Below the pieces are notes generated by a model. That model was not told where the DNA came from. It did no database searches and saw nothing but the letters and a program-made list of their open reading frames with translations. The position numbers were made by a program, and so were the translations under genes. Shown here in pieces: positions 29,451 to 40,280 of a stretch of 64,000 nucleotides of DNA. Each line of letters opens with the position of its first letter. The first letter of the stretch is position 1. Origin of the DNA: Hymenobacter tibetensis (lineage in GTDB: Bacteria > Bacteroidota > Bacteroidia > Cytophagales > Hymenobacteraceae); NCBI RefSeq assembly GCF_022827545.1, contig NZ_CP094669.1, positions 1,640,001 through 1,704,000 of the forward strand, in the 5' to 3' direction.

Positions 29451-30362
29451 ATGCGTGCCACTATTCTGCGTCAGCTTGATTTACCTAATCTGCCATCGGC
29501 TTCCGGGGTAGAAATTGTGGGGGAGACGGTGTACATCATTGGCGACGACTCGCCGTACCTGTATCGGTTTACGGCCACCGACTTGGTGCCCGGCAAGCCG
29601 CTGACCCTGTTTGAAACCGCGCATTTCAGTTCCGGCCGCATAGACAAAGCCATCAAAGCCGACTTGGAATGCCTGACGGCCCTCACAACGAGCACCGGTG
29701 AAATGGGGCTGTTGGCCTTTGGATCCGGGGCTACGGCAGCGCGGGAGAATGGCTTTTGGGTGCCGCTTTCCCCCGCGCAAGGAGAGGCGGCCACTGTGCA
29801 CCCCGTATCGTTAAGCGGCCTATATGCGCAGCTAAGGACCCTGCTGCCGGCTGGTGCGACTCTCAACTTGGAGGCGGCTGCTACTACCGATACCGAATTG
29901 CTGTTGTTCCAGCGCACGGTTGGTTCAACGGCTGGCAACTTGGTATTCCGAATGCCCTTGGCCCCCACGCTCGACTTTCTGCATCACCGCGCCACGCAAT
30001 TGCCAACGGTGCGGCCACAGCTTTTTCAACTGCCCAACATCAAGGGCAAACCAGCCGGCTTCTCGGGTGCTTGCACCTACGAGGACAAACTGTTTGTAAC
30101 GGCTTCCGTGGAAGACACCGCTGATGCCATTCTGGACGGTGAGGTATTAGGAAGCTTTGTTGGCTTGCTCGACCTCGACCAATCCGCCAACAAGCCGGTG
30201 ACCTTTGCACAGCTGCAACTCGCCGGCGGCAAACCCTACACCGGAAAAGTGGAAAGCGTAGCTATTCGGCGGCGTTTGGCAGCGAGCCGCTACGAGCTGC
30301 TGCTCGTCACTGACGACGACCAGGGTGGCTCTACGGCAGTGCTGGTGGACGTGACGGTATGA
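29451..30362 (+). CDS. DUF6929-like beta-propeller protein, cytoplasmic
   Basis: 303 residues without signal peptide. Opening LRQLDLPNLPSASGVEIVG, then YIIGDDSPYLYRF, KADLECLTAL and FSGACTYEDKLFVTASVEDT, ending LLVTDDDQGGSTAVLVDV. The repeated strand-turn pattern suggests a propeller; the closest label I can offer from memory is DUF6929, function unknown. No catalytic motif stands out, and no neighbour explains it. Confidence 0.7.
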   Translation: MRATILRQLDLPNLPSASGVEIVGETVYIIGDDSPYLYRFTATDLVPGKPLTLFETAHFSSGRIDKAIKADLECLTALTTSTGEMGLLAFGSGATAARENGFWVPLSPAQGEAATVHPVSLSGLYAQLRTLLPAGATLNLEAAATTDTELLLFQRTVGSTAGNLVFRMPLAPTLDFLHHRATQLPTVRPQLFQLPNIKGKPAGFSGACTYEDKLFVTASVEDTADAILDGEVLGSFVGLLDLDQSANKPVTFAQLQLAGGKPYTGKVESVAIRRRLAASRYELLLVTDDDQGGSTAVLVDVTV

Positions 30363-30395: not shown

Positions 30396-31460
30396 TTATT
30401 TTGCTTTGGCGCGGCGCCAAATAAAGCCGTCTAATACGTAGTGTGTCATTTGGGGGAGGGCTAGTAGGGGTACCAGCAAGGTTAGCAGCAACGGTGCGCT
30501 GGCTACGGAGGGGAGATTTTGAAACCAGTGGAACACCGTGCCATGCTCGCGCCATACGAGGCCGTCCCAAAAGCCTTCTTCGGCGTAGGCCAACCCGAAC
30601 AAAACACCTAAGAACAACAACCAGCCGTAGCGCCCCGACCACCAGTACCCTGCGCGGGCGGCAGGATGCGCTGTGGAGCTAGGCTGACTGGTAGTCCATA
30701 CCAAAGCCAAGTAGGGAATACCGTGCGCTACTACATTAAGCAAGGTAAACGCTAGGTCACCGTTGAACTGCACAATGCCGAAGTACCACGACACCAGTGT
30801 GCCAGCCATCAACAAATTCCGCGGCAGATTGAAGGTGCGGGTGCGCTGCCAGAGTTGGGTTTCCTTGAGCAGATAGGCCCCAATCAAGCCGACATACGCT
30901 ACCGTGGCTACCAGTCGGCCAAGAGGGAAATCGTGTTGTACAAAGTCGCCATCGATAAACCAGTTGAAATTGCGCGGTGGCGAAAGATGCCAGTATAGCA
31001 ACGGGTAGAGCGTGGCGTAATAAATCAGCAGCGTATCGAGGGTACGGGCGCCGGGGGTAGGGGCTTCGTGGCGGGAGTACAGGCGCTGGAATCCGTATTG
31101 CTGCCGGATGAAATGAAAAACCGCCAGATACGCCAGCACCCGCCAAAACAGCAAGCTTCCGGCATAGTGCAGCGCCACGCCCGCCGCGTAGCAGGCCAGC
31201 GGCACCAGCCACAGCAACAACCGAAACTGACGGCGCCGCACCGGGTCGAAATACGTGCGGAACAGGGTACTGTACACGTGCGCCACATCAATCAGCACAA
31301 CCAGAATCACCCATCCCCAAAGCGGCATGTGGGACGTGGTACGGAATTGCGCCGGCAGTGCCAGCACCACCAGCAGCGCCAGAAACGGCGGCAACAAGAT
31401 AAACGCCCCATCGAAGCGGGCAGAGCGAATCCAAGGCTGAGTGGAATGGGAGAGGAGCAC
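30396..31460 (-). CDS. Polytopic membrane protein with conserved intramembrane histidines (end of SpeD/SpeE-like cluster)
   Basis: 354 residues with roughly eight or nine hydrophobic helices. Histidine-bearing segments recur inside or at the edge of helices: LIDVAHVYSTLFRTYFD, AVFHFIRQQYGFQRLYSR, NVVAHGIPYLALVW and QMTHYVLDGFIWRR. The pattern recalls histidine-ligated membrane enzymes, but I cannot name the family; a Brp/Blh-type oxygenase is a weak alternative. It is the last minus-strand gene after the FAD oxidoreductase, separated by 188 bases that contain an interspersed repeat, so cotranscription is plausible but not certain. A role as the membrane partner in the polyamine-like pathway upstream is inference. 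Confidence 0.75.
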   Translation of the reverse strand: MLLSHSTQPWIRSARFDGAFILLPPFLALLVVLALPAQFRTTSHMPLWGWVILVVLIDVAHVYSTLFRTYFDPVRRRQFRLLLWLVPLACYAAGVALHYAGSLLFWRVLAYLAVFHFIRQQYGFQRLYSRHEAPTPGARTLDTLLIYYATLYPLLYWHLSPPRNFNWFIDGDFVQHDFPLGRLVATVAYVGLIGAYLLKETQLWQRTRTFNLPRNLLMAGTLVSWYFGIVQFNGDLAFTLLNVVAHGIPYLALVWTTSQPSSTAHPAARAGYWWSGRYGWLLFLGVLFGLAYAEEGFWDGLVWREHGTVFHWFQNLPSVASAPLLLTLLVPLLALPQMTHYVLDGFIWRRAKAK

Positions 31461-31560
31461 GAAAAGTAGTTGCTAAATGAATTAACGTCTAAAACTGATA
31501 TAAAGTAACCGAGCTTTGGCCCGCCAGAAGGCACAGGCAATATCTAGCTAGAAACTGTTG

Positions 31561-31627
31561 TTCCGACGCAGGAGGAATCTGGGTGAAGCCGTTGAACAAT
31601 TCAACTTAGATTCCTCCTGCGTCGGAA
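31561..31627. repeat. Interspersed palindromic repeat (20-bp perfect arms)
   Basis: Arms 31561-31580 (ttccgacgcaggaggaatct) and 31608-31627 are exact reverse complements. The 27-base loop itself contains a small palindrome (GTTGAA/TTCAAC). Sequences of this kind (gtcattccgacgcaggaggaatct) recur throughout Hymenobacter-like genomes as I recall, so this is probably a repeat-family member rather than a dedicated terminator. Confidence 0.75.
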
Positions 31628-31648
31628 TGACAAGGGCATTCTTGCCAG

Positions 31649-33349
31649 CTAGGCTACTGTCAGCATTTCGTGGGCTGCCCGTATGCCTTGGTGGAATCCT
31701 TCCTCGAAGATAGAAATACCGCTGAGGTCGGTGTGGGCGAAAAACAGCTTGTTGCGCCAGGGCTGTGCCGCCGCCGCTCGGCCAGGGCCCCATAGGTAGC
31801 CGGGCGTGGGTGCTACCATGCCGTGGCCCCACACCCATACATCGGCCCGCTGAACGTGGGGCGTGACGCCGGGGTGCATAATTTCCAGCTCCGCGAGCAG
31901 GCGTTTCAGCCATTCGTCGTAGCTGGTTTGGTAGGCGCGGCGCCGGGCAGCTTCGGGTGGCTCGTCGCACAGCGGCCAGTACATGGTTATGACCTTGGAC
32001 GCGTCGGAGCGTAGGCTTAGGTTTTGATGGTTGGCATTTACGTAGCCCACCGACGTGCTGCCGTAGCGCACATTGTCCCAACACAGGGGCTGGCCGGGGC
32101 CCTGCGGTAGGCCATCGACGGTGAGATTTGCTACCACCCACGGGGCATAGTAAGGTGACAGGCTGGCGCTAGGAGCATCGGTTAGGCCGGCCAGCAGCCG
32201 TTGGGTAACGAACTGCGGCGTAGCCAGCAGCACCTGTCGGGCCTCTACGCGCACGGTTTGTTGGGTGGCTACATCATACGCTAGCACATCTAGTCCCGTG
32301 GCAGTTTCGCGCAGCTGATAGGCCACCATGCCCGTGCTGATGGGGGCGGAAGCCTGTTGGCGCAATTGCTCGATCAGAAAGTTGTTGCCTTCGGGCCAGG
32401 TTAGAACGTCCGAAGCGCTGGCATTGTGAGCGCGGCCTTTGCGAGCGGCAAAGTAGTGCAGCCCCGCCCACGCCGACACCGCAGCGGCTGGCGCGCCGTA
32501 GTCGTCGCGGCAGCCGTAGTCGAGGTACCAGCGCAGATAGGTGGAAGCGTAGCCCTGCTGCGTGAGATAGTCGGCGAAGGAAATGGTGTCGAGCTGGCGG
32601 TAGGTGGGGTCAGCGGAAGAATACTCGAGAGGAATGGCAAACACCTCTTTGCCATCCTGGCCGCGGGCTTGCTTCAGATCCTCGATTAGCTTGAAAAACC
32701 GGGCTATTTCGGCGCGGTCGGCGGCTGGTACGCCAGCATCTGGCACCAGACCCTGCTGCCAATGCCCGTGGATGTTAAGGCGCTCCTCGGGGTCGTGGCA
32801 GAGGTAGTACTCGTTGTAAATAGGCAAGCCGGTATCCGGCGTAAAATCAGTTATCACCCCCGATTCCCGTAGGAAAGCGAGCAGCTTACTGTTGCCAGAA
32901 TCCGGGATGGGGAGGTAGTGGGCGCCCCACGGATAGGCGGAAACCTGGTTTTGACCGGCGGAGGCATTGCCGCCCACACGCTCGTCCAGCTCTAGCAGCA
33001 GCGTATCGGGTTGGCCTTGTTGATGCAGCTCCCGCCGTGCGGCAAGACCGGCCACGCCTCCGCCGATGATGAGCACCTCGGTGCGCACGGTGCGGGTGGG
33101 AGTCGGCAGCTTTCCGGGTTGTCGTAGCAAATGGCCAGTAGCATGGTTGGCGCCGTGCAGCGCCCCCTGGACGTGGGCCTGCGCCGTGCCCGGCGTGCAC
33201 GATTCCAGCAGGCTGGTTGGGGCTAGCAGTACCCCGGCCAAGCCCAAGCCGGCCCGTTGCAGAAACGTGCGCCGCGGGACCTCACCCCCTAGCCCTCTCT
33301 CATCAGGAGAAGGGGGACTAGCGGCTAGTTTTTTAGCTCTAAAAGCCAT
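31649..33349 (-). CDS. Exported FAD-dependent amine oxidase-like protein with twin-arginine signal
   Basis: 566 residues. RR at 26-27 followed by TFLQRAGLGLAGVLLAP is a Tat-type signal, and a cysteine at residue 51 (LLESC) could make it a lipoprotein, though Glu at -2 is unusual. The dinucleotide-binding fold is clear: VLIIGGGVAGLAARREL at 92-108 and LLLELDERVGGNAS at 117-130. The C-terminus has FAHTDLSGISIFEEGFHQGI, the usual FAD-closing motif of amine oxidase/phytoene desaturase relatives. It lies 70 bases after the membrane spermidine-synthase-like gene, so an oxidase for a polyamine-like product outside the inner membrane is the natural hypothesis (inference). The first 25 residues include an in-frame repeat (33279-33319). 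Confidence 0.85.
   Translation of the reverse strand: MAFRAKKLAASPPSPDERGLGGEVPRRTFLQRAGLGLAGVLLAPTSLLESCTPGTAQAHVQGALHGANHATGHLLRQPGKLPTPTRTVRTEVLIIGGGVAGLAARRELHQQGQPDTLLLELDERVGGNASAGQNQVSAYPWGAHYLPIPDSGNSKLLAFLRESGVITDFTPDTGLPIYNEYYLCHDPEERLNIHGHWQQGLVPDAGVPAADRAEIARFFKLIEDLKQARGQDGKEVFAIPLEYSSADPTYRQLDTISFADYLTQQGYASTYLRWYLDYGCRDDYGAPAAAVSAWAGLHYFAARKGRAHNASASDVLTWPEGNNFLIEQLRQQASAPISTGMVAYQLRETATGLDVLAYDVATQQTVRVEARQVLLATPQFVTQRLLAGLTDAPSASLSPYYAPWVVANLTVDGLPQGPGQPLCWDNVRYGSTSVGYVNANHQNLSLRSDASKVITMYWPLCDEPPEAARRRAYQTSYDEWLKRLLAELEIMHPGVTPHVQRADVWVWGHGMVAPTPGYLWGPGRAAAAQPWRNKLFFAHTDLSGISIFEEGFHQGIRAAHEMLTVA
33279..33319. repeat. Interspersed repeat captured in the N-terminal codons of the FAD oxidoreductase
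   Basis: The segment acctcaccccctagccctct and what follows reads, in the gene's frame, SPPSPDERGLGGEV. This is the translation of a common dispersed Bacteroidota repeat (CTCACCCCC...CTCTCC...GGAGAAGGGG) with an internal imperfect palindrome. It sits directly before the twin-arginine motif. Confidence 0.6.
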
Positions 33350-33419
33350 GCTGTATCGGTATAGAACACTGTGCCCTCTGCGGGTGCTCTTAAAGTGTGG
33401 ACAGTATTATCGTTGTAAA

Positions 33420-35015
33420 TCAATGCGAATACGGTCCCCAGTCTTCCTCGAAATAGCGCACCAGCGCTTGGTTGTTTAGCTGATTAATTTCGGTTGGTAC
33501 TTCGGCCATGTCGGGTGGGAAGTAAAGCATTTGGCGCAGGGTGGCGGGCGTCAGGAAGCGGAGGCCGGTAGGTAAAGGGCTGGCATCGGGGCGCCAGTGG
33601 GCGTTGCGGCCCGCCAGCACATAGCCCCACTCCCCAAAAGAGGGCACGTAGCAATGGTACGGAATGATTTGAAAGCCAGCGGCCGCCAGCGTGTGCGCCA
33701 CGCACCAAAACGACTGCCGCGCCACGTAAGGCGACGTGCTTTGCACCACTACGCGGCCGCCAGGCGCTAGTCGCTGTTCCAACGCCCGGTAGAAAGCAGT
33801 GCTGTAGAGCTTGCCAATCGAGTAGTTGCCGGGGTCCGGAAAGTCCACCACAATGCCGTCGTAATGGGTTGTGTCTTGCCGAATCCACTGGTAAGCGTCG
33901 CCGTTGACAACCTCCACTTTGGGGTCGAGCAAGGCGCGCTGGTTGAGTTGCACCAGAATTTCGTTGTGCTGGAAGAGCTGGGTCATGCCCGGGTCGAGGT
34001 CGACGAGGCGAATCTGCTGGAGGCGCGGATACTTTAGCAGTTCCCGCACAGCTAGGCCGTCGCCGCCGCCGAGCACAAGAATACGGCGGGCGTTGGGTAG
34101 GCCTTGCAGCAGCGGGTGCACCAGCGCCTCGTGGTAGCGATACTCGTCCTGCGAGCTGAATTGCAGGTTGCCGTTGAGGAAGAGGCGCAGCTCGCGGTTA
34201 TTTTTGGTGAGCACCAGCCGCTGGTATACGGTGCTCTTGCTGTAAATTACCTGGTCCTGAAACGCCAGCGTTTCGGTGTAGCTCTGGATACGCTCGGAAT
34301 ATGCGAAGGTGGCTCCCAAAGCCAGCAGCGCCACCAGTAACCCGCCCGCAAAACTGCGTCGGTAGGGTTGTGTTTCGCGGAAGCGAAACAGGGCCACGCC
34401 CGCCACCACCACGTTCAGCGCGCCAAACAGCAGCGAAGTCCGCATCAACCCCAATTGCGGTACCAGCACCAGCGGAAAAATCAGCGACGCCAGCAGCGCC
34501 CCGATGTAGTCGAAAGTGAAAACCCGCGACACCAGGTCCTTGAACTCGTAGCGGTTCTCCAAAATCCGCATCAGTAGCGGAATTTCCAGGCCTACCAAAA
34601 TTCCCGTAAAGCCTACCAGCGCGTACAGAATCAGGCGGAACGACGTGACGTACTCGAACAGCACAAACAGCAGCGGCGCTGAAAAGCCGCCTACCAGCCC
34701 CACCAATATCTCCAGCCGAATAAACCACTTCAGCAACGAGCCGCCCAAGTAGCGCGACAGCCACGACCCGATGCCCATCGAAAACAGATAGGCCCCGATA
34801 ATGGTAGAAAACTGCGTGACCGAGTCGCCGAGTAAGTACGAGGCCAGGGTGCCGGCAATTAGCTCGTAAATCAGGCCGCAGGTGGCAATAACGAACACCG
34901 AACCCAATAACAGCGCCGCCTGGCTTTCCACAGCGACAGCGGCCAGTCGGGCCGGCGTGCCTGAAGCTGCGGCAGCGGTGTTGCGCCCGGTGCGGCGTAC
35001 TGGCTCCTTAACCAT
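33420..35015 (-). CDS. Membrane-fused spermidine-synthase-like aminopropyltransferase
   Basis: 531 residues. The first ~240 contain about seven transmembrane helices (GSVFVIATCGLIYELIAG, FSTIIGAYLFSMGIGSW and others); the rest is a SpeE-type Rossmann enzyme. Family motifs: LNGNLQFSSQDEYRYHEAL (substrate loop), VLVLGGGDG near 313, LVDLDP, VVNGDAYQWI and VVDFPDP near 390, where a soluble SpeE usually has D(S/T)xDP. It should use decarboxylated SAM to transfer an aminopropyl group to an amine at the membrane. It overlaps the DUF350 gene by 8 bases, so the two are translationally linked. The acceptor is unknown. Confidence 0.9.
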   Translation of the reverse strand: MVKEPVRRTGRNTAAAASGTPARLAAVAVESQAALLLGSVFVIATCGLIYELIAGTLASYLLGDSVTQFSTIIGAYLFSMGIGSWLSRYLGGSLLKWFIRLEILVGLVGGFSAPLLFVLFEYVTSFRLILYALVGFTGILVGLEIPLLMRILENRYEFKDLVSRVFTFDYIGALLASLIFPLVLVPQLGLMRTSLLFGALNVVVAGVALFRFRETQPYRRSFAGGLLVALLALGATFAYSERIQSYTETLAFQDQVIYSKSTVYQRLVLTKNNRELRLFLNGNLQFSSQDEYRYHEALVHPLLQGLPNARRILVLGGGDGLAVRELLKYPRLQQIRLVDLDPGMTQLFQHNEILVQLNQRALLDPKVEVVNGDAYQWIRQDTTHYDGIVVDFPDPGNYSIGKLYSTAFYRALEQRLAPGGRVVVQSTSPYVARQSFWCVAHTLAAAGFQIIPYHCYVPSFGEWGYVLAGRNAHWRPDASPLPTGLRFLTPATLRQMLYFPPDMAEVPTEINQLNNQALVRYFEEDWGPYSH

Positions 35016-35223
35016 GAATTGCCGCGCTGATTATTAGGGCCACGGCAATCATAAAAGCTGCGCTTACCAACGCAAAAGCGTTGTTATGCTCCTCCATAAT
35101 TTCCTTGCGTAGCGTACCCGGCGTAAACTTCTCGAAGAGATAAAAGCTGATAACTAGAATAACAATGCCCAACACCGAGTAGATAACGGAAGCGGCAATA
35201 AGCTTGAAGTTAAGGTATTCCAT
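35008..35223 (-). CDS. DUF350 (YjfL-like) small membrane protein
   Basis: 71 residues with two transmembrane helices: KLIAASVIYSVLGIVILVISFYLFEKFTPG and AFALVSAAFMIAVALIISAAIHG. The FEKFTPGTLRKEIMEEHNNA loop is typical of single-repeat DUF350. The family is of unknown biochemical role but recurs beside DUF4178, SpeD- and SpeE-like genes, as here. Its stop overlaps the start of the SpeE-like gene. Confidence 0.9.
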   Translation of the reverse strand: MEYLNFKLIAASVIYSVLGIVILVISFYLFEKFTPGTLRKEIMEEHNNAFALVSAAFMIAVALIISAAIHG

Positions 35224-35347
35224 GTGGTGAAATGATGAGGTAGTGAAGTCGTGATTCAGCAGCTTAGTAGCTTCTTGAACTGGCTATTCAAGTTGTGCCG
35301 ATAATAGGAGCTGGATAGCTGACTCAGTAAGTCGTAAGGTCACTATC

Positions 35348-35542
35348 TTACTTATGATAGAAGCGGGCATGGCCACCAGAGCCGCCGTGGCTACTATTGC
35401 CATTCAGGTTTTCGGTGTTTTCGTTGTCGTCACCGAGTAGGCGGGTGCCCCGCAAGCCAGCCCACACGAAGGTGCCGTAAGCCAGGGCTGCTGCTAACGC
35501 GTAGTAGCGTATGCTTTTCAAATCGCGCAGGAGTTTCATCAC
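35348..35542 (-). CDS. Small single-pass membrane protein with Asn/Gly/Ser/His-rich tail
   Basis: 64 residues: a basic N-terminus (MMKLLRDLKSIRYY), one transmembrane helix (ALAAALAYGTFVWAGL) and a polar tail rich in N, G, S and H (NENTENLNGNSSHGGSGGH). It begins 15 bases after the DUF4178 gene and lies 124 bases before DUF350, so it belongs to the operon. No family recognised. Confidence 0.7.
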   Translation of the reverse strand: MMKLLRDLKSIRYYALAAALAYGTFVWAGLRGTRLLGDDNENTENLNGNSSHGGSGGHARFYHK

Positions 35543-35557
35543 CAGTATGAGTAAGGG

Positions 35558-36889
35558 TTATTCTGCTTCTTGTGGGCCATAGTCGCTATTAAGCCAGCGG
35601 GTTTTTTCGTGGTTGTAGCGGCGGAAGAACTGGATGCCCGGGTAAATGGCTAGCATCAGCAGAAATAGTATGGCATTGGAATGCAGCGGCGTATTCTGCG
35701 TTACCACTAGATTAATAGGCAAATCCAGACCCGCCTCCGTGGTAGGGTAGATGTTGAGGTGATACCGGCCCGATGGGATGCCAGCTAGGGTAGCGTTATC
35801 ATTCTCGCTGCCTTCGCTCCAGCTTTCGCCGTCCTCGATACCAAAGTAATGCTCTAGGCTCTTCGTGAATTCGTAGCTTTGACCGGTTTTCTCGTTTACC
35901 AGCGAAACTGGAATTTCCAGCCACTGATTGCTGAGTGAAGAGCGTAAATCGAACTCCAGAGCAGCCGGCCCCTTCACCTCAAAGGAAGATGTTACGATAA
36001 CGTTGTTGCTGCCTGCGGCGGAGGCCGTGACGGTGTTGTCTAGGGTAGTAGGTTGACTTCTAAACTGCTGATTGAGCAACTCTTGTTGCGGTTTTACAAA
36101 TAAAAACAGCGCCTGTGTTACGACGATGATCAGGGCCATAAGCCATGAGAACCACATCAGGACTGGCCAACTGGCTTCGCCCGGTGCTGGCTGAATGGCG
36201 CCCACGCCTTGGCGCCACGGCATTCGTTGCGGTTCCAAGTTGAAGGCCGCCTGCACAGCAGCTGGCTCCACGTAAGTGGCTTTGTACCATTCTGATTTTT
36301 TGGTTCGGGGATTGCGCTCCTGCACCAGCATGTAGGGCGGGGCAATGAACTCGGAAATATTCAGCTTTTCGTCGTCGAAGATATTCCAGTCGAACTCGCC
36401 CATAGCGTACAGCACTTGTTGTTGGTAGCGGTTGTAGAGGGCATAATTGGTGTCGTTGGTGAACACGTAGGCGTTGCGCGATGTGGGCCGGCCTACTTTG
36501 TAGCCACCCTGCACTGGTTCTACGAACATCCAATGACCCTCAAATACGGCCAGTTGCACATAAGTCCCGGTGGCTTGGTCCAGCAACATGTATTCCATCC
36601 ATTGGGCAGGATACCTCACTTCGCGCTTCAGTATAAAGCCGACGACACAGTAGGTGTTCCCAAACAGTGCACCGACCGCACCAAGCAATAAAGTCGGTTG
36701 TTCAACAAGTGCCTTTTTAAAGCCCCCCATAACTCGGGGTTGCCGTTCGTTTTCGTATTCGAAGAAGGTACGGCAGTTGGGGCAGACGTAGAACGAGCTG
36801 TTCTTAGCGTCAAAATACGTGATGGAGGCGTTGCATTTCGGGCAGTCAAGTTGTGCCGGGGCCACGGTAGATGGTAGATTTTCACTCAT
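35558..36889 (-). CDS. Zinc-ribbon DUF4178 membrane protein
   Basis: 443 residues. The N-terminus is a zinc ribbon (DCPKC near 15 and VCPNC near 35), followed by DUF4178-type strands (GAVGALFGNTYCVVGFILKREVRYPAQWMEYML is a characteristic opening). Then come a transmembrane helix (LMALIIVVTQALFLFV), an extracytoplasmic beta-sandwich-like region with FEVKGPAALEFDLRSSLSNQW, and a last helix (ILFLLMLAIYPGIQFF). Its start codon overlaps the speD stop in an ATGA, so the two are coupled. Its role in the polyamine-like pathway is unknown; it could be the membrane scaffold. Confidence 0.88.
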   Translation of the reverse strand: MSENLPSTVAPAQLDCPKCNASITYFDAKNSSFYVCPNCRTFFEYENERQPRVMGGFKKALVEQPTLLLGAVGALFGNTYCVVGFILKREVRYPAQWMEYMLLDQATGTYVQLAVFEGHWMFVEPVQGGYKVGRPTSRNAYVFTNDTNYALYNRYQQQVLYAMGEFDWNIFDDEKLNISEFIAPPYMLVQERNPRTKKSEWYKATYVEPAAVQAAFNLEPQRMPWRQGVGAIQPAPGEASWPVLMWFSWLMALIIVVTQALFLFVKPQQELLNQQFRSQPTTLDNTVTASAAGSNNVIVTSSFEVKGPAALEFDLRSSLSNQWLEIPVSLVNEKTGQSYEFTKSLEHYFGIEDGESWSEGSENDNATLAGIPSGRYHLNIYPTTEAGLDLPINLVVTQNTPLHSNAILFLLMLAIYPGIQFFRRYNHEKTRWLNSDYGPQEAE

Positions 36890-37239
36890 CGGCGCACCTC
36901 GGTTTTGGTTTGCTCGGTGCCCTCGAAAAAGCGTAGCGTCTCCGCGTACAACTGCCGCACCGTGGCCGAATTATCGCGCTGAAAGTTCGACAAGAACACA
37001 TCAAAGGTTGCTAGGCCGTATTCCGGCCAGGTGTGCACGCTCAAGTGCGACTCCGTAAGGCCGACTACCGCCGTGAAGCTGCCATTGGGAAACGTGTGGT
37101 ACACTTCGCCCACCTTGGTGAGCTGCAACGCCCGGATCTGCTCGTTGAAAAACGACTGGCAGGCGTCCGCGTTAGTCAAGTGTTGTACCGGCGCCGTGAA
37201 CGTAGCCAGTACGTGTAAACCAGGAGTATAAGAAGACAT
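36886..37239 (-). CDS. speD: SpeD-like S-adenosylmethionine decarboxylase proenzyme with altered active site
   Basis: 117 residues, the size of bacterial class 1b AdoMet decarboxylase. The self-cleavage site is Glu63-Ser64 in LTESHLSVHTWPEYG, which would yield the pyruvoyl cofactor from Ser64; His69 is the conserved processing histidine. However the position of the catalytic Cys (family DVFTCG) is Ser84 here (DVFLSN), confirmed by reading the codon TCG. It may still make decarboxylated SAM for the SpeE-like enzyme, or act on another amino acid, since SpeD relatives with other substrates are known. It is the first gene of the run and overlaps the DUF4178 gene by 4 bases. Confidence 0.85.
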   Translation of the reverse strand: MSSYTPGLHVLATFTAPVQHLTNADACQSFFNEQIRALQLTKVGEVYHTFPNGSFTAVVGLTESHLSVHTWPEYGLATFDVFLSNFQRDNSATVRQLYAETLRFFEGTEQTKTEVRR

Positions 37240-39422: not shown

Positions 39423-40280
39423 CTACTTTTTTGCAACAGCTTGCGTCTCACGGATCATGCGCAGCATTTCCATAGTCATCATCTGCAGGTGCTCGGTGTT
39501 ATTGGTCATAAAGCCAACCATTTCAATGAGACGGTCCTGCACCTCGCGGTTGTTGGCCGGTATTTGCGAGGTCAGAATGCCGCGCACCAACCATATTTCC
39601 TTGATATCCTCGGCCCTAACTCGGTGTACATGGTAGTGGGAGTTGTCGGAGTGCAGCTCTACTACGTCGTTGGCGTGCAGAATAGGTGCATTGATGCGTT
39701 TGACCATAATCATGTTCTCCATCACCACCACGTAAGGATAACCGGGGGCTAGGTTAGTCCACTTATCCACGTAGCTGCACAACACCATGTCTTTGTGCCG
39801 GATGATGGGCATCATACTGTCACTTTCCACCTCAAACGCCCGTCCGCCTTGGATGGGGAAACCTGGAATCGTGAATTTCACCAAGTCCTCTACAAAAGAG
39901 GGGTCACTGAACTGCCGGCTGTAGCCTGCCTGCGCCGGAATAGGCACCAACGACATGTTTTCCTTGCCTTGCGTGTCGGTGGTTACCACCAAAGTCCGTC
40001 CATTGTCGGTGCGCAACGGTAAGTTGGTAGTCACCTCTATTTCAACATCTGTTGTAGCGGCGCTAATATACATAGAGCCTTGGCCTCTGATCAGCCATTC
40101 CGCGCTTAGCTCGGGGTAGCGCGTGAGAATATCCAGCAGCGTTTCGTAGCTCGGTTTGTTGCGCTGGCGAAGAATAGAGTATAACTTTTCCGGCCGGTCG
40201 TACTGTAGTTCCTTGGCCAGTTGATTCACGGTGATACCCTTATCGGCAATAAAAGCAGCGAATCGTTCGTGCAGCTCCAT
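39423..40280 (-). CDS. HTH/S24-type (CI/LexA-like) repressor with intact self-cleavage residues
   Basis: 285 residues. An N-terminal helix-turn-helix (residues ~1-60, GITVNQLAKELQYDRPEKLYSIL) is followed by a linker and an S24 domain. The features needed for autoproteolysis are present: an Ala-Gly site at 118-119 (PAQAGYS), Ser155 in ESDSMMP and Lys194 in MVKRI. Such repressors control prophages or SOS-linked genes and cleave when RecA is activated (family knowledge). It heads, on the same strand, a group of small phage-like genes upstream (40504-41580). The C-terminal ~50 residues (NNREVQDRLIEMVGFMTNNTEHL) are an extra helical tail. Confidence 0.88.
   Translation of the reverse strand: MELHERFAAFIADKGITVNQLAKELQYDRPEKLYSILRQRNKPSYETLLDILTRYPELSAEWLIRGQGSMYISAATTDVEIEVTTNLPLRTDNGRTLVVTTDTQGKENMSLVPIPAQAGYSRQFSDPSFVEDLVKFTIPGFPIQGGRAFEVESDSMMPIIRHKDMVLCSYVDKWTNLAPGYPYVVVMENMIMVKRINAPILHANDVVELHSDNSHYHVHRVRAEDIKEIWLVRGILTSQIPANNREVQDRLIEMVGFMTNNTEHLQMMTMEMLRMIRETQAVAKK

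Follow-up and report, generated by a model that had tools for sequence, protein, structure and literature searches.

Spermidine synthase (SpeE) homologues fused to membrane helices have been met in operons before. Work by Li from 2019 (Biochem J) reportedly dealt with S-adenosylmethionine (AdoMet) decarboxylase clusters that have a polyamine-independent role, and the SpeE fusions in them are said to fail to replace SpeE in Escherichia coli. The E. coli YjfIJKLMC and YgiBC systems were reportedly described by Pederick in 2023 as peptide-spermidine ligase systems. Operons that combine a SpeE fusion with DUF350 and DUF4178 genes were published as the second group in a study of PspA neighborhoods (PMC11237479), which in its sections on these operons refers to the targets of aminopropylation only as other substrates. 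Hypusine on eIF5A, a further point of comparison, is named in PMC12270671. Here, we examine a seven-gene cluster related to these systems in a stretch of 64,000 nucleotides from Hymenobacter tibetensis (contig NZ_CP094669.1, positions 1,640,001 to 1,704,000), called the window below.

The initial annotation of this DNA had proposed seven genes on one strand, and all seven open reading frames (ORFs) were found in place. They are collinear on the minus strand in the order speD, DUF4178 gene, small transmembrane (TM) protein gene, DUF350 gene, SpeE fusion gene, flavin adenine dinucleotide (FAD) protein gene, and polytopic membrane protein gene (Table 1). Successive spacings are −4, 15, 124, −8, 70, and 188 bases, which agree with the couplings proposed for speD with DUF4178 and for DUF350 with the SpeE-like gene; the loose gaps lie ahead of DUF350 (124 bases) and ahead of the last gene, that of the polytopic protein (188 bases). 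Our central proposal is that the SpeE fusion aminopropylates the terminal lysine of the operon's small TM protein, a reading of the sequences that we hold to be evenly poised between right and wrong. In the initial annotation, the acceptor was a membrane lipid or small amine, which we judge less likely than this lysine. That annotation passed over the invariant His-Lys C terminus of the small TM protein and a Cys-to-Ser change in SpeD.

When named genomes were scanned with SpeE as the query, 175 relatives were returned, of which the best 80 were kept, all with titles naming Bacteroidota. SpeD, DUF4178, the small TM protein, SpeE, and the FAD protein are each present in 80 of these 80, DUF350 is present in 78 (missing from L051 and L054), and the polytopic gene is present in 71. 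Since the set recurs on one strand in all 80 loci, its association is not due to chance. The scored gene order differs in seven loci. Six of these reflect a mechanical ORF start placed too far upstream, and the tblastn positions restore the normal order; in the seventh, L065, the DUF4178-small TM-DUF350 triad is doubled. Tandem doubling of this triad ahead of SpeE occurs in L056 as well as in L065. The FAD or polytopic gene lies kilobases further along in some loci, e.g., L004, L037, and L039. Flanking genes recur rarely (DUF6929 in 25 of 80 loci, M28 in 3 of 80). As a second sample, we drew 395 genomes evenly from across the phylum. The SpeE query gave 36 matches in it, of which 29 span the fusion and 7 are limited to the SpeE domain. 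The families therefore co-occur beyond close relatives, in the 80 named relatives and in the 395-genome draw, and the single conserved gene set of the initial annotation stands. A scan of viral contigs gave a single SpeE locus (L154) with no cluster around it, and in Rhodovulum (L156) a SpeE fragment stands on its own.

His-Lys forms the last two residues of the small TM protein in 80/80 relatives. Among 81 sequences of this protein, only G32, G57, H63, and K64 reach the 95% conservation level; the linker varies, with abundant Gly, Ser, Asn, and Arg. As a control, the other proteins of the same 80 loci were inspected for lysine as last residue: it occurs in no SpeD, DUF350, or SpeE protein, in 2 DUF4178 proteins, in 6 FAD proteins, and in 9 polytopic proteins. 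The predicted topology of the small TM protein is N-in, C-out in 78 of 82 entries, with the window's own counted twice.

The terminal lysine is also found at greater distance. We used 28 of the 29 full-length SpeE loci of the 395-genome draw, the 29th being the window itself. At 26 of the 28, a neighboring protein with a TM segment or a lipoprotein-like start ends in Lys. This is a mini-TM protein ending in HK in L090 to L102, L104, and L105, a mini-TM protein ending in GK in L106 and L108, and a GK-ending protein of about 240 residues in L110 to L114, L116, and L117. In two loci, DUF4178 is fused to a tail with a TM segment and the product still ends in Lys (L103:9795-11189, SGSHK; L115:6460-7164, SRGFGK). 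The remaining two, L107 and L109, carry a Gly-Gly tail beside a GSP_synth ligase (273 and 256 bits). Lys also closes DUF4178 in three of the 28 loci (L092, L104, and, as the fusion, L103), the polytopic protein in two (L092 and L099), and SpeE in one (L109); the background in this set is 34 of 283 ORFs of at least 250 residues. On plasmids, 9 of 10 SpeE records have a Lys-ended tail (Novosphingobium, Gemmatirosa, Burkholderia, Tritonibacter, Ensifer, and Alteromonas), and in the tenth a SpeE fragment stands alone, with no tail.

Because the lysine had been noticed before these counts were made, and Lys-ending ORFs had been listed for L106, L155, and L157, we applied a fixed rule (TM segment, flexible tail, and HK or GK end) to 108 Bacteroidota loci. 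Within 4 kb of SpeE on the same strand, it gave 95 matches in 94 loci (1026 kb of strand), compared with 2 matches in the 2.6-fold greater length of strand elsewhere (2660 kb). Fourteen loci gave no match: L107 and L109 are the Gly-Gly loci, and the other 12 do end in HK, failing on the hydropathy limit (11 loci) or the composition limit (L061).

The tails of ATP-grasp loci end differently. We examined 31 such loci (10 plasmid, 2 E. coli, and 19 from the Bacteroidota phylum), counting as a tail a Gly-, Ser-, and Arg-rich gene adjoining the ligase. A tail was found in 25 (all except L126, L137, L138, L139, L146, and L153), with Gly as the last residue in 16, Ser in 6, Ala in 3, and Lys in none. 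In E. coli, DUF350 of yjfIJKLMC is paired with YjfM, which ends in GHWGG, and YgiB of ygiBC ends in RSMGG; RefSeq names YjfC and YgiC peptide--spermidine ligases, and the adjoining DUF1190 proteins end in GG. The window tail, ending in His-Lys, is thus unlike those of ATP-grasp systems, which end in a small residue, mostly Gly. The initial annotation had noted the lack of an ATP-grasp ligase. This holds for the cluster, where we found no GSP_synth ligase, but not for the genome, which has one homologue elsewhere (L132:6202-8182, in G000:C1:3866000-3880000) beside a 231-residue lipoprotein of its own ending in SRGFGG. Taken together, Lys with SpeE and Gly, Ser, or Ala with ATP-grasp imply that tail type follows enzyme type, even within one genome.

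This pairing is what the strongest alternative leaves unexplained. The operon might yield an unusual free polyamine, or aminopropylate a membrane lipid or small amine, with the Lys tail as a structural or binding partner. The intact SpeE motifs and the membrane-bound state of the enzyme would suit such a role, but it offers no reason for Lys beside SpeE and Gly, Ser, or Ala beside ATP-grasp, and we regard it as unlikely. Less likely again is a tail lysine that is never modified, with a tethered basic tip that plugs or gates a channel-like DUF350 or an ion channel while SpeD and SpeE make a soluble regulator. Potassium-channel-like genes (Ion_trans_2 plus TrkA_N) do lie directly after SpeE in two GK-tail clusters (L113:9598-10653 and L116:9642-10691), and ion channels are annotated in the ATP-grasp plasmid loci L121, L124, and L125. 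However, no channel family passes its cut-off in the window's cluster, and a basic plug would be expected to have Arg in place of Lys at times, which occurs in 0 of 80 loci.

The SpeE domain itself keeps its catalytic motifs intact. The initial annotation's aminopropyltransferase fused to seven helices is borne out by the PRK03612 match (Table 1) and by the catalytic motifs, with GxGxG, DxPDP, and YHE invariant in 56/56 diverse members. In the same 56, Lys plus Arg is 2.7 at the N terminus and 2.4, 3.3, and 3.1 in loops 2, 4, and 6, but 0.2, 0.6, and 0.2 in loops 1, 3, and 5; TM7 has a hydropathy of at least 1.6 in 55. Because the positive charges sit at the N terminus and in loops 2, 4, and 6, the positive-inside rule predicts that the SpeE domain lies outside the cytoplasm. 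This goes against transfer at the inner face, as previously suggested, and would place the tail, the SpeE domain, and the FAD protein on the same side of the membrane. With the SpeE domain extracytoplasmic, the donor would have to cross the membrane; the invariant acidic residues of the TM part (E51, E144, and D169) are candidates for this transfer.

SpeD would supply that donor. Its Ser84 aligns with the catalytic Cys83 of the Thermotoga maritima enzyme (1tlu). Ser stands at this position in 80/80 loci and in 120/120 of those listed among 566 SpeD relatives, two sets that overlap. All of these 120 also end in Arg. In the phylum set, SpeD is present in 23 of 28 loci. Four of these have Ser (L090, L091, L092, and L095), 18 clearly have Cys, and L115 was read as Cys by eye; all 8 SpeDs found on plasmids have Cys. 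From these alignments, the Cys-to-Ser change is confined to one part of the phylum. We considered whether SpeD acts as an ornithine or arginine decarboxylase and rejected this; Ser does not point that way, since PMC10407285 states an expectation that such enzymes, too, would retain Cys83.

Ordinary spermidine synthesis deserves mention because the 6.3-Mb genome yielded one SpeD and one SpeE family member, both in this cluster, and no carboxyspermidine decarboxylase over cut-off (41.5 versus 409 bits); an arginine decarboxylase-like gene is present at 84 bits, under its cut-off. Nevertheless, a SpeE that is membrane-fused and predicted to be extracytoplasmic, a SpeD without Cys83, and partners that are membrane and exported proteins make it improbable that the cluster serves this purpose. 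That SpeD has ceased to be a decarboxylase and the system uses another donor, as the Ser in all 80 loci could suggest where Cys83 is reported essential for self-processing and involved in catalysis (in the relevant portion of PMC10407285), is the least probable alternative of all, given that seven loci with the full seven-gene set (L096 to L102) keep Cys and that the pyruvoyl Ser, the His, and the Trp-Pro-Glu stretch are retained.

The FAD and polytopic proteins set this cluster apart from the published SpeE-fusion operons. An exported FAD amine-oxidase-like protein had been proposed, and a twin-arginine-type motif, R[RK]x[FLMW], does precede the nucleotide-binding site in 79/80 relatives and 14/14 proteins of the phylum draw. 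It is also present in 2 of 4 plasmid loci, where the other two read RRxVL. The PF01593 domain scores 39.6 bits against a gathering score of 19.8. In the 395 genomes, the FAD query gave 16 matches, of which 15 are strong and adjoin SpeE and 1 is weak; one match (G265) has an internal stop. The polytopic query gave 14, of which 11 are strong and adjoin FAD, 2 are weak, and one is a 72-residue piece. The piece (G363:C12:371167-371379) comes from a genome without a SpeE match and is possibly the remnant of a lost cluster. Among the fetched plasmid SpeE loci, FAD is present in those of Novosphingobium, Gemmatirosa, and Burkholderia and was not found in those of Tritonibacter, Ensifer, and Alteromonas; none of the six yielded the polytopic protein. 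FAD tracks the HK form imperfectly, as L104 and L105 have HK without FAD and Gemmatirosa has FAD with HGK.

A role for the FAD protein as an eraser of the lysine tail would be an attractive guess, weakly supported because its best sequence matches in the PDB, LSD1 and Fms1, cover the nucleotide-binding stretch only. In the polytopic protein, four histidines that lie within or close to hydrophobic stretches (H61, H116, H246, and H340) are invariant or nearly so, and E294, E295, and D344 are invariant, consistent with a possible metal or heme site serving FAD. Pfam searches with 40 members of its family gave only weak matches, with no Pfam family reaching more than 3 of the 40, and neither the single sequence nor a profile found a match in the PDB. 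We did not accept its automatic names (carotene monooxygenase and lycopene cyclase). In the DUF4178 protein, C16, C19, C36, C39, E325, E333, E346, E355, E359, and H377 are conserved at 95%, and the window's DUF350 covers positions 6 to 66 of the 133-position Pfam model.

Returning to the aminopropylated tail, we infer the following chemistry, including donor export and the part given to FAD. SpeD would make decarboxylated AdoMet in the cytoplasm, and the seven-TM domain, perhaps with DUF350, would deliver it across the membrane. The membrane-fused SpeE would then attach the aminopropyl group at the small TM protein's C-terminal Lys, on the epsilon-amine of a side chain, -(CH2)4-NH2, that would imitate putrescine as the acceptor. 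The product, N6-(3-aminopropyl)lysine, would be a membrane-tethered spermidine-like group; the exported FAD protein, partnered in the membrane by the polytopic protein, may oxidize or remove this group. Such a target would also explain why SpeE fusions of this kind reportedly do not substitute for spermidine synthase. The proposal in its full form, i.e., a new modification at a C-terminal Lys made outside the cytoplasm by a membrane-embedded spermidine synthase homologue, with ATP-grasp peptide-spermidine ligases as a second route to a polyamine-tipped membrane protein and FAD as eraser or finisher, is more tentative than its core, and we think it somewhat more apt to fail than to hold.

Several points weigh against this proposal. 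An outside SpeE domain would require export of the donor, and the activity of SpeD is uncertain because this clade lacks Cys83. Two genomes of the window's own genus in the 395-genome draw have no SpeE match, and therefore the system is dispensable. The lysine was spotted before counting, and because the tails of L106, L155, and L157 came from lists of Lys-ending ORFs and that of L085 was assigned by eye, these four are not blind. Among the ATP-grasp loci, L136 and L141 encode an additional upstream lipoprotein whose last residue is Lys. Sorting, binding, or channel plugging could also account for a conserved terminal Lys that is not modified. Finally, classical flavin amine oxidases carry an active-site lysine near the flavin, and no Lys is found among the 130 positions conserved at 95% in the sequence alignment of the FAD family.

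The features of the cluster are collected in Table 1, with family calls from Pfam and NCBIfam profile matches. The gene at 29451-30362, convergent with the operon, passes both DUF6929 (308 bits) and DUF6910 (185 bits). Near the cluster, 39423-40280 encodes an S24 peptidase domain with a weak, below-cut-off helix-turn-helix match, i.e., a LexA/cI-like protein. A sigma-70 promoter scan, which does not cover Bacteroidota promoters, gave 0 sites versus 3.6 in shuffles, and terminator-like sites (14 versus 8.9 in shuffles) decide nothing.

Table 1. Features of the seven-gene cluster, with positions counted from the first nucleotide of the window.
Feature	Position	Strand	Basis or remark
SpeD, pyruvoyl AdoMet decarboxylase homologue, 117 residues, ends in Arg	36886..37239	-	AdoMet_dc, 71 bits; sole one in genome
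Codon of SpeD Ser84, at the T. maritima catalytic Cys83 position	36988..36990	-	Alignment to 1tlu
N-terminal Zn ribbon, DUF4178, TM, conserved acidic domain, TM; 443 residues	35558..36889	-	Pfam, 42 bits; topology inferred
Small single-TM tail protein, 64 residues, ends in ARFYHK; proposed aminopropyl acceptor	35348..35542	-	No family; in 80/80 loci
Codons of the tail protein's terminal His-Lys	35351..35356	-	H63 and K64 conserved in at least 95% of 81 sequences
DUF350 (YjfL family), short form, 71 residues, probably two TM	35008..35223	-	Pfam, 55 bits
Seven-TM domain fused to SpeE aminopropyltransferase domain, 531 residues	33420..35015	-	PRK03612, 681 bits versus cut-off of 472
Twin-arginine translocation (Tat)-type exported FAD amine-oxidase-fold protein, 566 residues	31649..33349	-	Amino_oxidase over full length, 39.6 bits; RRTFLQ motif
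Polytopic membrane protein with conserved His/Asp/Glu, 354 residues, family unnamed	30396..31460	-	No Pfam family over cut-off

Overall, the earlier interpretation of the cluster is partly supported. One conserved residue, on a protein that the operon itself encodes, offers a concrete substrate candidate for a membrane-fused SpeE. If the proposal is true, it would add one more lysine modification, account for a SpeD/SpeE pair without requiring spermidine as its product, and bring two families of tail-protein operons under one principle. The sections of PMC11237479 on these operons, with supplements outside the search, do not mention the terminal Lys. Literature on aminopropyl-lysine, on protein aminopropylation, and on aminopropyltransferases with a C-terminal lysine gave nothing beyond that paper, again with supplements outside the search, so that a prior mention is possible.

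How does the cluster compare with known systems? The Li clusters reportedly have SpeD beside a major facilitator superfamily (MFS)-type SpeE fusion and DUF350, as in the window; the acceptor was reportedly left open there, and the window SpeD has Ser at position 83. The E. coli Yjf and Ygi systems share with the window DUF350 (in yjf) and a membrane-anchored protein with a flexible Gly-, Ser-, and Arg-rich tail, but they pair an ATP-grasp ligase with a Gly-Gly tail where the window pairs SpeE with a Lys tail. Hypusine arises when another enzyme, in the cytosol, places an aminobutyl group from spermidine on an internal lysine. The proposed mark would likewise be a polyamine-derived chain on a lysine epsilon-amine, yet it would sit on a C-terminal Lys and carry an aminopropyl group. 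The closest match, as far as the operon descriptions in PMC11237479 go, is the PspA-neighborhood type, which has in common with the window the 7TM-SpeE fusion, DUF350, DUF4178, and an additional membrane-anchored protein. The initial annotation's link of DUF350 and DUF4178 with SpeE is thus in print. We read the lipoproteins of about 240 residues in L110 to L114, L116, and L117 as being of its Ctha_1186 type. The window differs from these operons in having no PspA-CesT/Tir dyad among the seven genes and three flanking ones searched with Pfam, and in a 64-residue mini-TM protein that replaces the Ctha_1186 lipoprotein, both kinds being Lys-ended. To this operon type, the window adds SpeD, the exported FAD protein, and the polytopic protein, and the last two are a little-described extension of the published SpeE-fusion operons.

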